From Lysobacterales bacterium 63-13 (GTDB lineage Bacteria; Pseudomonadota; Gammaproteobacteria; Xanthomonadales; Rhodanobacteraceae): a stretch of 64,000 nt of DNA. Shown here piece by piece: positions 28,388-31,352 of this stretch (position 1 is the first letter of the stretch; each line of letters begins with the position of its first letter). Below the pieces are notes generated by a model that saw nothing but the letters and a program-made list of their open reading frames with translations, was not told where the DNA came from and searched no databases. The translations under genes and the position numbers were made by a program. The DNA is taken from the NCBI GenBank assembly GCA_001899855.1, contig MKWR01000023.1:1-64000 (forward strand), written 5' to 3'.

Positions 28388-28602
28388 GGTGCTCTCCTCG
28401 AAAGGTGATTACGGCACCGCCATGCCTGCATGGAGCATGCAGGCGGGGTACGCGCACGCTTATCTGACCGGATCATGGCTGAACGTGAACCGTCCGCCCG
28501 CCAGGCCTGCAAAAATTCAACATTCGCAGCTCTTGCCTGGCCGGATCGGGTGCCGGTTTTTGCTTGCCGCCTGCCTGCAATGACGGATAATCTGTCGCTT
28601 GC
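28388..28602. other. Divergent intergenic region between the DUF6600-like gene and tRNA-Gly
   Basis: It holds the leader of the minus-strand DUF6600-like gene, including a perfect 9-bp hairpin GCCTGCATG/CATGCAGGC (28424-28444). The tRNA promoter lies on the plus strand at its right end. No gene is seen. Confidence 0.5.
28564..28591 (+). promoter_or_regulatory. Putative sigma-70 promoter of the split tRNA-Gly
   Basis: TTGCCG (28564-28569), a 16-bp spacer and GATAAT (28586-28591) lie just upstream of the tRNA 5' end at 28603. The spacing places the start site a few bases before the mature tRNA. Confidence 0.6.
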
Positions 28603-28641
28603 GCGGGTGTAGCTCAATGGTAGAGCTGTAGCTTCCCAAGC
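28603..28641 (+). tRNA. tRNA-Gly(CCC), 5' exon (interrupted by group II intron)
   Basis: The first 39 nt of a tRNA-Gly: acceptor GCGGGTG, D arm, 5' anticodon stem GTAGC, loop TTCCCAA with anticodon CCC, and the first two stem bases GC. At 28642 it changes abruptly to GTGCG, the consensus 5' end of a group II intron. The 3' exon is at 31318-31352. Joining them restores a perfect GTAGC/GCTAC anticodon stem and a 74-nt tRNA with encoded CCA, so this is not a dead fragment if the intron splices. Confidence 0.85.
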
Positions 28642-29459
28642 GTGCGACGTCAGCTGCGAGTCACACGCCTTTGCTGTAGCAGTCGATTCCTCATCGTAAA
28701 CAGAGGCGGCACCCGGCACCGATTGCCGGTTGGTTTGGACAGGATGTTTCTGTCTGGACGCAGCAAGGGAGAGTCGTGTCCACAAGCAGTACGTGGTCAC
28801 GACGTTTCGCGGCGAAGGCCGTACAAGAAATTGTCGGATGGAGTGAGTGCATTCCAATCCGACCAGACGTTCGACCGTCTGTAGCCTAGGATCGATGCGG
28901 GGTGGGTAACTGCCCGGTATTGAGCGATCTGACAATGTAGCCACCTTACGGGGTACGCTGACTCCGCGAGGGGGCATGCGTGTATCTGGGTAAACGCACT
29001 CGGAGAGGCGCTAGGCTGGAACGAAGGGTTAGCGAAAGCAAACTACCGTCGTAATCGTCGTCAAGCAGTAGAGGCCAAAGCGTTCGGGCCTCGTACCAAA
29101 AGGTATAGGACTGGTTGTGCCCCTGCTTGGTGGGCACACGTCGACATCACGGTCCTCGGCGAAATAGGTAGAACCCTCCCGTTTCTGTTTCTTGTCCGGA
29201 AGACGGTAACCTCGTTAAGCTGTCGGCGCACCGTGCCGACTAGGTGCCCGCAAGGGTCATTGAAGGCTTAGCGGGAACAGGATCGCGGAGAAAGCGAAAG
29301 CCCGGCTGTAATGGCCGGGATAGGGGATGTAAAGATCGCCCCGACCCGAAAGGGTGCAGACTTCCGCGTGGTGGCCTGTCGCTAGACAGGTCTGACAACC
29401 AACTCCCGATGGGGTGACGAACCCCATCAGGGGAACGTCCATCCCCAAAGGGTTCATGG
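28642..29459 (+). ncRNA. Group II intron ribozyme, domains I-III
   Basis: About 818 nt without a credible protein gene. Many short helices are visible: the EBS1 hairpin (29116-29136), CCCGGC/GCCGGG near 29300-29320, CCTGTC/GACAGG near 29383-29400, and GATGGGG/CCCCATC near 29408-29428. Exact domain borders would need covariance modelling. Small open frames here are not considered genes. Confidence 0.75.
29125..29130 (+). other. EBS1, exon-binding site 1 of the intron
   Basis: GCTTGG in the loop of a GTGCCC/GGGCAC hairpin. It is the exact complement of CCAAGC, the last six bases of the 5' exon (28636-28641). The same CCAAGC is present in the embedded tRNA (29494-29499), so that gene also has the target motif. 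Confidence 0.8.
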
Positions 29460-29533
29460 GCGGGTGTAGCTCAATGGTAGAGCTGCGGCTTCCCAAGCCG
29501 CTGACGAGGGTTCGATTCCCTTCACCCGCTCCA
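29460..29533 (+). tRNA. tRNA-Gly(CCC), intact, embedded in the group II intron
   Basis: A complete 74-nt tRNA gene. The acceptor GCGGGTG pairs with CACCCGC, anticodon stem GCGGC/GCCGC surrounds loop TTCCCAA (anticodon CCC), and the T arm is GAGGG/CCCTT with loop TTCGATT. CCA is encoded. It differs from the interrupted host tRNA only in two anticodon-stem pairs. It lies in intron domain IV, 16 nt before the RT start codon. No separate promoter was recognised, so it may be released by RNase P and 3' processing from the intron transcript. Confidence 0.95.
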
Positions 29534-29549
29534 ACTTTGGAGGACTGAT

Positions 29550-31196
29550 ATGGACGCCATCATTGATGGTGATATTGCCTCCACACGATGGGCTGACTGG
29601 CACACGATCCCGTGGGCCATGGCATTCCAGAGTGTTCGGAGGTTGCAGATCCGCATAGCGAAGGCAGCAAAGGACGAAGACTGGCGCAGGGTCCGTTTCC
29701 TGCAACGGTTACTCGTCCGCTCGACCACCGCAAAAGCAGTCGCGGTGCGTCGAGTTACGGAGAACCAGGGCCGTAAGACCTCGGGCGTAGACGGTGTTAC
29801 TTGGTCGACGTCCACGGAGAAGGGGCGAGCAATAGCGGAGCTGGAGACGCGGCGCTATCGTCCAAAGCCCCTCCGCCGGGTGCATATCCCGAAAGCCAAT
29901 GGAGGAAAGCGCCCACTTGGGATTCCGACAATGAAGGACCGGGCAATGCAGGCGCTCTATTGGCTTGCGCTCGATCCTGTCGCGGAGACTCGAGGGGATT
30001 TGAACTCCTATGGTTTTCGCTCCGGACGCTCTACTGCGGACGCAATCGCTCAGTGCCACAACGGACTGGCGAGGAAGCATTCCCCGGAATGGGTACTGGA
30101 GGCTGACATCAAGGGCTGTTTCGACAACATCAGTCACGATTGGCTGGTGCAGCACGTGCCTATGGATAAGTGCGTGTTGTTGAGATGGCTCAAGGCCGGG
30201 TATGTCGAGGGTCGTACGTTGTTCCCGACGGCCGCCGGAACGCCACAGGGAGGAATCATTTCTCCGACCTTGGCGAATTTGGTGCTAGACGGCATGGAAC
30301 GATTGTTGAAAGACAGTCTTCCTCGTTGTGCCAAGATAAACTTTGTCCGTTATGCGGATGACTTCATTGTGACTGGGGCCTCGAAAGAGGTTTTGGAAAC
30401 ACGAGTCAAACCGTTGATCGTGGGGTTTCTTGCCGAGCGCGGGTTACAGCTATCGGTTGAGAAAACGAAGATCACCCCTGTGACGGAGGGGTTTGATTTT
30501 CTTGGGTGGCATGTGCAGAAACACCTCAAGGGAAACGCCAAGAAAAAGGACTTCCTGCGCATCGTGCCGTCGAAGCGAAATGCCAAAGCGTTCTATGCCA
30601 AACTCAGGAGTCGACTGAGTGAGCTGCGAGGTGTCAGGCAGGACGACGTGATTTTTGCCCTGAATCCGATTATCCGGGGTTGGGGCAACTATCACCGGGT
30701 CGTGCATGCATCCCGTCCGTTCGCGAAGATGGATCACCAGATATGGCGGGCACTTTGGCGCTGGTCAGTGCGTAGGCATCCGACGAAGGGCAAGCGCTGG
30801 ATCAAACGGCGGTACTTCCGCTCGAATGGTTCACGCGACTGGCTCTTTCAGGCTGAGAAGTATCCTCTGGTGCGGTTGTCCAGTATTTCCGTGGGCAACT
30901 ACATCAAGGTGCGATCCGACGCGAGCCCGTACGATCCCAAGGATGAAACCTACTTCGACGTGAGGATGACTCGTCGGATGGGGTCTAGCCTGCAAGGACG
31001 CAGGAAGTTGTTTTGGCTTTGGAATCAACAGGAAGGACTTTGCCCGGTTTGCGCCTCCAAGATCACGAAAGCTACGGGATGGCATGTCCATCACATGGTC
31101 TGGCGGGTCTTTGGGGGTTCGGATCGGTTGTCCAACCTGCAATTGCTCCACCCTACGTGCCACATGCAGTTGCACGCGCGTGCTGCGAAGGAATAG
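29550..31196 (+). CDS. ltrA: Group II intron-encoded reverse transcriptase/maturase with HNH endonuclease
   Basis: A 548-residue intron protein with the order RT N-terminal, RT, maturase X, HNH. The N-terminal domain runs from about residues 20 to 85 (RRLQIRIAKAAKD, AVRRVTENQGRKTSGVDG). RT motifs include RPLGIPTMKDRAMQ, AGTPQGGIISPTLAN and the catalytic YADD (268-271). Domain X contains the IRGWGNYHRV region (375-384). The HNH domain has CPVC (498-501), WHVHHMVW, SNLQLLHPTCH and a final His. It should aid splicing and drive target-primed reverse transcription. The start has a fine site, TTGGAGGA, 7 nt upstream, in the spacer directly after the tRNA. It appears intact and active. Confidence 0.95.
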   Translation: MDAIIDGDIASTRWADWHTIPWAMAFQSVRRLQIRIAKAAKDEDWRRVRFLQRLLVRSTTAKAVAVRRVTENQGRKTSGVDGVTWSTSTEKGRAIAELETRRYRPKPLRRVHIPKANGGKRPLGIPTMKDRAMQALYWLALDPVAETRGDLNSYGFRSGRSTADAIAQCHNGLARKHSPEWVLEADIKGCFDNISHDWLVQHVPMDKCVLLRWLKAGYVEGRTLFPTAAGTPQGGIISPTLANLVLDGMERLLKDSLPRCAKINFVRYADDFIVTGASKEVLETRVKPLIVGFLAERGLQLSVEKTKITPVTEGFDFLGWHVQKHLKGNAKKKDFLRIVPSKRNAKAFYAKLRSRLSELRGVRQDDVIFALNPIIRGWGNYHRVVHASRPFAKMDHQIWRALWRWSVRRHPTKGKRWIKRRYFRSNGSRDWLFQAEKYPLVRLSSISVGNYIKVRSDASPYDPKDETYFDVRMTRRMGSSLQGRRKLFWLWNQQEGLCPVCASKITKATGWHVHHMVWRVFGGSDRLSNLQLLHPTCHMQLHARAAKE

Positions 31197-31242
31197 GCTG
31201 CCGCTCTACCGACGCGGGTGTCGGTAGAGTTCTTGGCTGCTT

Positions 31243-31317
31243 GAGCCGTATGAGGCGAAAGTCTCACGTACGGTTCTTAGGGGAGGGGGTGGCCGCGAGG
31301 CCGCCTCCTCACCCGAC
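31243..31317 (+). ncRNA. Group II intron domains V and VI and 3' splice site
   Basis: Domain V is the 34-nt hairpin GAGCCGTATGAGGC-GAAA-…-ACGGTTC (31243-31276) with the catalytic AGC-type triad and a GAAA tetraloop. Domain VI (31280-31314) closes with a GCGA loop at 31295-31298. It leaves A31311 bulged as the branch point, followed by three pairs and GAC. The distance from branch A to 31317 fits the usual seven- or eight-nucleotide rule. Confidence 0.88.
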
Positions 31318-31352
31318 TACTGACGAGGGTTCGATTCCCTTCACCCGCTCCA
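31318..31352 (+). tRNA. tRNA-Gly(CCC), 3' exon
   Basis: The last 35 nt of the interrupted tRNA: TAC completing the anticodon stem, TGAC variable loop, T arm, acceptor CACCCGC, discriminator T and encoded CCA. It is downstream of the intron end (AC at 31317). See the 5' exon at 28603-28641. Confidence 0.85.

Follow-up and report, generated by a model that had tools for sequence, protein, structure and literature searches.

How can a mobile intron settle in a tRNA gene that is usually present only once? The question is raised by a stretch of 64,000 nucleotides (the window) from Lysobacterales bacterium 63-13 (contig MKWR01000023.1, positions 1 to 64,000), in which a tRNA-Gly(CCC) gene is split after nucleotide 39 by a group II intron (28642-31317) that itself holds a second, complete tRNA-Gly(CCC) just before the gene for its reverse transcriptase (RT)/maturase. 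Comparison with homologous introns establishes where the element inserts, what it carries and at which place, the conservation of the embedded tRNA, its standing as the sole uninterrupted CCC gene and the departure of its anticodon stem from that of the host at bases that pair with exon-binding site 2 (EBS2) of the intron. Judged from these sequence comparisons, the element is probably a natural home-and-rescue mobile intron that occupies a usually single-copy tRNA-Gly(CCC) gene and carries a spare, recoded tRNA in its domain IV. The parts of the locus are the following (IBS, intron-binding site; +, plus strand).

28603..28641, +, 5' exon of the host tRNA-Gly(CCC), 39 nucleotides, read from the sequence
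28630-28634, +, IBS2, AGCTT, within the 5' exon
28636-28641, +, IBS1, CCAAGC, in the 5' exon and adjoining the intron
28642..31317, +, group II intron, GTGCGAC...CCCGAC, identified by Rfam group-II-D1D4-7 and Intron_gpII and by ends common to the homologues
28863..29011, +, conserved intron core, Rfam RF02012 (group-II-D1D4-7), 88.9 bits
29063..29067, +, candidate EBS2, AAGCA; AAGCT in most homologues, where it pairs with IBS2 AGCTT
29125..29130, +, EBS1 loop, GCTTGG, pairing with IBS1 CCAAGC wherever an intron junction was read
29436..29450, +, 5' strand of a hairpin that has the embedded tRNA as its apical loop (RNA fold)
29460..29533, +, embedded complete tRNA-Gly(CCC) with encoded CCA (ARAGORN tRNA-Gly(ccc); Rfam; homologous copies)
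29535..29556, +, 3' strand of this hairpin, holding the Shine-Dalgarno sequence GGAGG and the start codon of the RT gene (sequence, RNA fold)
29550..31196, +, RT/maturase with HNH endonuclease domain, 548 amino acids (Pfam RVT_N, RVT_1, GIIM, HNH)
31241..31317, +, domain V/VI, Rfam RF00029 (Intron_gpII), 66.0 bits
31318..31352, +, 3' exon of the host tRNA-Gly(CCC), read from the sequence

The original prediction had described a tRNA-Gly(CCC) cut after its 39th base by a group II intron, and both the sequence and the Rfam matches to domains I-IV and V/VI bear this out. The intron starts with GTGCGAC at 28642 and ends in GAC, which fits the group II boundary motifs GUGYG...AY, and the matches to RF02012 and RF00029 both exceed their gathering scores, so that conserved ribozyme domains including domain V are present. 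EBS1 and IBS1 pair at six of six positions, EBS2 and IBS2 at four of five. The RT matches NCBIfam TIGR04416 with 367.6 bits (cut-off 300), and its best match in the structural database is PDB 6me0 (E = 3.2e-177), a maturase which we take to be that of Thermosynechococcus elongatus, of subclass IIB. The full-length tRNA inside the intron, likewise predicted, gives a complete Rfam match over 29460-29530 (72.6 bits, E = 6e-14) in addition to the ARAGORN call. As had been stated, it shares its anticodon with the joined host tRNA and differs at two anticodon-stem pairs; nucleotides 27, 28, 40 and 41 are in fact the only differences. The host 5' exon is identical to the 5' half of uninterrupted genes in several congeners. 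When the intron is used as a blastn query, the best plasmid match listed covers 27% and the best phage match listed 29%.

Whether the tRNA belongs to the intron was addressed in several sets of genomes, which have some loci in common and in which a few loci have little sequence 5' of the RT. The host family comprises 233 genomes, and 16 of these have an RT match at E <=1e-100. Nine of the 16, including the window's, hold an intron that is at least 75% identical in its RT; all nine introns share their insertion nucleotide in tRNA-Gly, and each carries an embedded tRNA. Within the family the same site is found both occupied and empty. An RT scan of a genome contig database (genome_contigs) gave 242 loci, the best 80 of which were examined along with 16 loci from viral contigs (viral_contigs). 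At each of the 36 loci with RT identity of at least 59% among these best 80, the RT is immediately preceded by a tRNA-Gly(CCC), whole or as a remnant, and ARAGORN recognizes a complete embedded tRNA at 32 of them. The other four are L113, where an assembly gap lies inside the tRNA, and L097, L104 and L121, where an island has entered it and the RT is adjoined by the tRNA 3' end alone. The intact embedded tRNA is found at the opposite end of the island in L097 and L104; in L121 (Thauera) a broken embedded copy is followed just downstream by a further, intact one, which the island probably brought in.

Five of the 36 loci stem from genomes already in the family set (same contig positions), which leaves 40 distinct entries. 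A search with the GIIM family, which is independent of this RT and covered 299 genomes of the phylum (30 loci examined, among more matches than these), added one more carrier, the one-contig genome G952, whose RT is 58% identical. In all 41 entries, which comprise gamma- and betaproteobacteria, the intron interrupts tRNA-Gly(CCC) at the identical nucleotide, and in 39 of them the embedded tRNA-Gly(CCC) is complete, the exceptions being one assembly gap and one copy broken by an island. Two of the entries are likely re-binned copies: L088 matches L089 at 99.97% identity over 3 kb, and no difference separates L113 from L115 in the 2.5 kb that begin with the RT. No embedded tRNA was found in the remaining 44 of the best 80 of 242 genome-contig loci, in the 16 viral loci, at 17 more distant RT loci from order and family searches, or at 28 of the 30 loci examined among the GIIM matches, the other two being the window and G952. 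In an RT tree built from 38 of the 40 carrier entries (without L034, which has a broken frame, and L113; G952 was found later) and 19 chosen of 60 non-carriers, the carriers all fall on one side of a single branch (SH-aLRT, the Shimodaira-Hasegawa-like approximate likelihood-ratio test, 99). Because the same isoacceptor or its remnant stands at the same place in all 41 members of the clade, the tRNA belongs to the intron, and the proposed search for homologous introns in tRNA-Gly with a tRNA in the same position has been answered in the affirmative. Two further candidates were rejected: a tRNA-Pro at L050 lies on the strand opposite the RT and beyond the Rfam intron matches, and the flank of L166, at first considered as a tRNA insertion, reads as a protein gene.

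Some of these loci deserve separate mention. The L088 contig is labelled Planctomycetota; its intron is the near-identical partner of that in the proteobacterial metagenome-assembled genome of L089, and the contig is probably mis-binned. At L034/L093 (G246, Mizugakiibacter) the RT frame is broken, with the first stop 127 amino acids from the start; the embedded tRNA and both halves of the host tRNA have stayed intact.

What does the embedded tRNA mean to its host? Uninterrupted tRNA-Gly(CCC) genes, sought by an exact pattern, number one in each of 44 of 45 genome handles (40 distinct genomes) and one in G952; the remaining handle, G481, has no match, the gap lying in its embedded copy. In all these genomes except G489 (Thauera) the single uninterrupted CCC gene is the embedded copy. 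By this pattern the embedded tRNA is the sole uninterrupted tRNA-Gly(CCC) in the 39 entries in which it is complete, a count in which some genomes are incomplete and genes deviating from the pattern would escape. For the window's genome Rfam reports 42 tRNAs, and the glycine genes among the 30 loci examined are TCC, GCC and the embedded CCC. The CCC gene is also nearly always single-copy in intronless genomes of the family, 210 of whose 233 genomes contain the pattern. In E. coli, 5360 of 5426 genomes match this tRNA-Gly, and the median number of matches is one.

The spare copy is not a mere replica. A point missing from the original prediction is that it deviates at the bases that pair with EBS2 while the pairing of the stem is kept. 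Pairing was compared in 39 introns in which both sites are readable (the broken copy of L121 was included, G952 was not), representing 25 distinct combinations, and the anticodon stem of host and embedded tRNA is different in every one. The 11-nucleotide core of EBS1 and EBS2 is perfectly matched by 32 of 39 hosts and by two of 39 embedded copies (L114 and L118). Over this core the host pairs better in 32 introns, both pair equally in seven (L032, which is the window, L040, L088, L109, L114, L118 and L121) and the embedded copy is better in none; when one further EBS2 position is counted, the host is better in 35, the two are equal in two and the embedded copy is better in two. In standard numbering the third stem pair contains nucleotide 29, for which 36 of 39 hosts have A; the embedded copies have U in 26 cases, G in eight and A in five, and their partner base, nucleotide 41, is A in 26, C in eight and U in five. 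Since IBS2 includes nucleotide 29 and the 3' exon begins with nucleotide 41, a single flipped pair alters both contacts and leaves the stem paired. The usual recoding is exactly this, one flipped pair 29-41 that changes IBS2 and IBS3 with pairing kept; IBS1 is changed as well in six of the 39 embedded copies. G952 is consistent with the pattern (host stem GAAGC, EBS2 AAGCT, embedded stem CTTGG). In Rhodanobacter thiooxydans LCS2 (L094) the stems, GTAGC in the host and GTTGC in the embedded tRNA, distinguish the two copies. Among 32 introns compared over the 74 nucleotides of the tRNA, the flipped pair is the sole difference in four (L033, L042, L043 and L044). In 22 introns from beyond the host family, the two tRNAs differ at a mean of 13.4 of 74 nucleotides, which implies that the cargo did not arise by recent local duplication and that it moves along with the intron.

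Uninterrupted genes of intronless family genomes rarely have a non-target stem. The target AGCTTCCCAAGC is common, being present in the uninterrupted gene of 104 of 232 genomes of the class. Of the intronless genomes in the family, 201 contain the gene pattern, and in 13 of these pair 29-41 is changed. A change at nucleotides 31/39 occurs in two of the 233 family genomes, both times in the embedded copy, and in none of the uninterrupted genes of intronless genomes. All nine embedded copies of the family are off the target stem, seven at pair 29-41 and two at nucleotides 31/39, and the difference between embedded and intronless stems is significant (Fisher p = 2.7e-10; 3e-5 if the four embedded alleles are counted once each). 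That no stem coincides between the host and embedded allele sets was not used as a test, the shared alleles being too few to prove much. The 13 intronless family genomes with a non-target stem (G261, G319, G320, G326, G329, G330, G377, G381, G387, G394, G430, G434 and G444) may contain resistant alleles or relics of lost introns; no intron remains were seen by eye in the short flanks of three such genes (L074, L082, L083).

The two closest introns show crossed specificities, the window combining EBS2 AAGCA with a host A29 and G383 (90% identical) combining EBS2 AAGCT with a host T29; the loci concerned are 29063-29067 of the window and L040/L088/L089. Congeners with the stem GTTGC exist, and since the EBS2 of the window fails to discriminate between the two copies, the window intron may have drifted or shifted its target.

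The embedded tRNAs bear the marks of a maintained structure. Thirty-three of them, 20 distinct, were aligned (the 39 complete copies less L088, L097, L104, L112, which has 75 nucleotides, L125 and G952). In the 20 distinct copies 98.6% of the cloverleaf stem cells are paired, 43 cells are changed on both sides and the covariation score is 0.297; none of 500 shuffles reached as high a value in any of these three measures. The six unpaired cells are confined to the two outermost pairs of the anticodon stem. All 33 copies are tRNA-Gly with an invariant CCC anticodon loop and an encoded CCA. Close introns with different cargo tRNAs are known from L109 and L120, and comparison of these sequences suggests exchange with other tRNA-Gly genes. 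The embedded tRNAs of L112 and L125 are of a type beginning GTCGTATAAC, which resembles the host tRNA of L110, and this likeness suggests exchange with chromosomal tRNA genes.

In the mechanism that we propose, the intron ribonucleoprotein would reverse-splice into the tRNA-Gly(CCC) target and interrupt the gene. RNase P and 3' processing would cut the spare tRNA from the intron transcript, and the spare would sustain decoding of GGG as long as the host tRNA is spliced slowly or incompletely. The altered stem would keep the spare from becoming a homing target itself and from competing in cis for EBS1 and EBS2. For the further-reaching view, that a natural, RNA-guided selfish element has seized a host tRNA gene present in one copy, breaking it and furnishing a recoded version of its own, the case appears to us evenly balanced; to our knowledge this would be the first retroelement observed to do so. 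If it is correct, carriers would come to depend on the tRNA of the element, the recoded stem would hide that tRNA from the element's own guide, and such dependence would account for the persistence of the intron and the retention of its cargo.

Several observations weigh against home and rescue, beginning with the window itself. As its EBS2 is AAGCA instead of AAGCT, host and embedded copy each pair at 10 of 11 core positions, and the embedded copy pairs better when one further position is counted; the same holds for L109. The embedded copies of L114 and L118 match the 11-nucleotide core and are discriminated by the next position alone. A single mismatch may well weaken homing rather than abolish it. 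Two of five covariation measures, pairs with a double change and pair types, are not above shuffles (152 and 373 of 500). The host halves have not decayed either: joining was attempted for 36 and gave 34 tRNAs, 25 of which are without a mispair, so that splicing probably works and the spare may be less needed than supposed. Furthermore, 13 of the 23 family genomes without the pattern were rechecked; 11 have the gene, and G263 (99% complete) and G304 (93% complete) have none by pattern. A tRNA-Gly(UCC), such as that found in the window's genome, may read GGG codons through wobble, and the CCC gene may be beneficial rather than essential. The original prediction had reasoned that an element which breaks an essential tRNA and delivers a working replacement would be tolerated. 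The comparison supports this interpretation in that the replacement is indeed the only uninterrupted CCC gene by pattern, but a UCC tRNA that may read GGG and the two genomes G263 and G304 make the essentiality of that gene questionable.

The base-pairing data that suggest avoidance of homing would equally arise if the recoding served splicing and not DNA targeting, since cargo with an unaltered IBS1/IBS2 would rival the 5' exon in pairing with EBS1 and EBS2. This explanation holds for every intron transcript, those of non-moving introns included, and is compatible with home and rescue. We regard it as possible though on the unlikely side, because IBS1 is changed in only six of 39 embedded copies and the longer competing pairing persists in 33; moreover, 34 of 39 embedded copies have A or C as their +1 base as opposed to T in 31 of 34 joined hosts, which bears on target recognition too. 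A processing or regulatory role for the maturase is suggested by the position of the tRNA, which occupies the loop of the hairpin that contains the ribosome-binding site and start codon of the RT. The fold of 29380-29560 has -79.1 kcal/mol (z = -3.77), and comparable pairing was judged by eye, uncounted, to be present in many of 36 homologous introns folded with the tRNA masked. Cleavage at the tRNA ends would free the RT message or part the ribozyme from the mRNA. For such a module any tRNA would do, yet all 33 aligned copies are tRNA-Gly(CCC) with CCA, the isoacceptor of the host, and the pattern finds no second intact CCC gene in the genome; we consider it rather doubtful as an alternative, while the module function may be an additional role of the embedded tRNA.

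A tRNA trapped once in domain IV and inherited unused would agree with the single label change on the RT tree, and domain IV projects from the ribozyme core and houses the protein gene in group II introns, as set out in PMC3073962. The compensatory stem changes, the invariant anticodon loop and the differing cargo in close introns (L109, L120) with structure kept make a passive passenger very improbable. Misassembly, or two adjacent elements in place of one intron, either of which would have refuted the original prediction, is practically negligible: the arrangement recurs in 41 entries including the one-contig genomes G115, G393 and G952, the cargo lies between the 5' part of the ribozyme and the RT in all introns not split by an island, and no point in support of misassembly was found. 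The same recurrence rules out a chance arrangement. Home and rescue remains the reading that we prefer.

Two further features flank the intron-bearing gene.

28564..28591, +, promoter-like site TTGCCG-16-GATAAT, 5' of the split tRNA, found by consensus scan alone (one found, shuffle mean 0.5)
from 31425, after the 3' exon, rimK-like gene (Pfam RimK)

The former may be a promoter from which host tRNA, intron, embedded tRNA and RT gene are all transcribed. Islands have inserted into the 3' end of the embedded tRNA in three instances, L211 with L097 (Solimonas fluminis), L186 with L104 (Burkholderiales) and L209 with L121 (Thauera), which creates a nested arrangement of an island within an intron within a tRNA gene. 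A tyrosine integrase (Arm-DNA-bind_3 and Phage_integrase) follows in L211 (Pfam) and in L186 (by eye), and the open reading frame in L209 gives a weak match below the cut-off (Pfam). The ends of the Solimonas island are about 89 kb apart if they are on one contig. In G895 (L246:1322-4568) another group II intron ends about 5 nucleotides before a complete tRNA-Leu(CAG), in its 5' leader, and a second tRNA-Leu(CAG) follows about 300 bp beyond the first.

How does this intron family relate to established systems? A description of a bacterial group II intron with tRNA cargo was not found in the titles and abstract openings of the open-access papers searched, and a conserved intron family of this kind was not found to be described in the literature searched. 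In about 40 proteobacterial genomes the only uninterrupted tRNA-Gly(CCC) gene resides within a retroelement, and annotation may record the embedded tRNA as an ordinary one and overlook the split host gene, just as ARAGORN does in the window. Bacterial group II introns with RT, maturase and HNH domains near 6me0 likewise possess the Rfam domains I-IV and V, EBS1/EBS2 pairings and an open reading frame in between; here, in contrast, the target is the anticodon stem of a tRNA and a complete tRNA of the target's kind is carried. Plastid trnK/matK and other organellar tRNA introns are group II introns in tRNA genes with a maturase, and we know of none with an embedded tRNA. Group I introns occupy the anticodon region of bacterial tRNAs, some with a homing endonuclease, e.g. 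in Synechocystis tRNA-fMet, as stated in PMC3073962. They too are self-splicing mobile introns at this region of a tRNA, but their ribozyme and mobility chemistry differ from those of the intron described here. A tRNA cargo is not known to us from group I tRNA introns either. Integrative islands reconstitute the 3' terminus of the tRNA gene that serves as their attachment site and thus also offset insertion into a tRNA gene by carried sequence. They restore a short 3' piece, whereas this intron brings a second whole gene, which islands here even take as attachment site.

The closest parallel comes from engineering. In synthetic home-and-rescue (HomeR) drives of flies, a Cas9 homing element is placed in a needed gene together with an encoded rescue, as outlined in PMC7968924. 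The element in tRNA-Gly(CCC) differs in being a natural bacterial retroelement that would be guided by its own intron RNA instead of an engineered Cas9. The rescue copy of HomeR drives is reportedly recoded as well. The intron family illustrates how a mobile intron may settle in a tRNA gene at low cost, and it offers a test of whether one flipped stem pair decides homing immunity. If our reading is correct, it represents a natural counterpart of a strategy known from engineering, in which an element homes into a needed gene and brings a rescue copy along.

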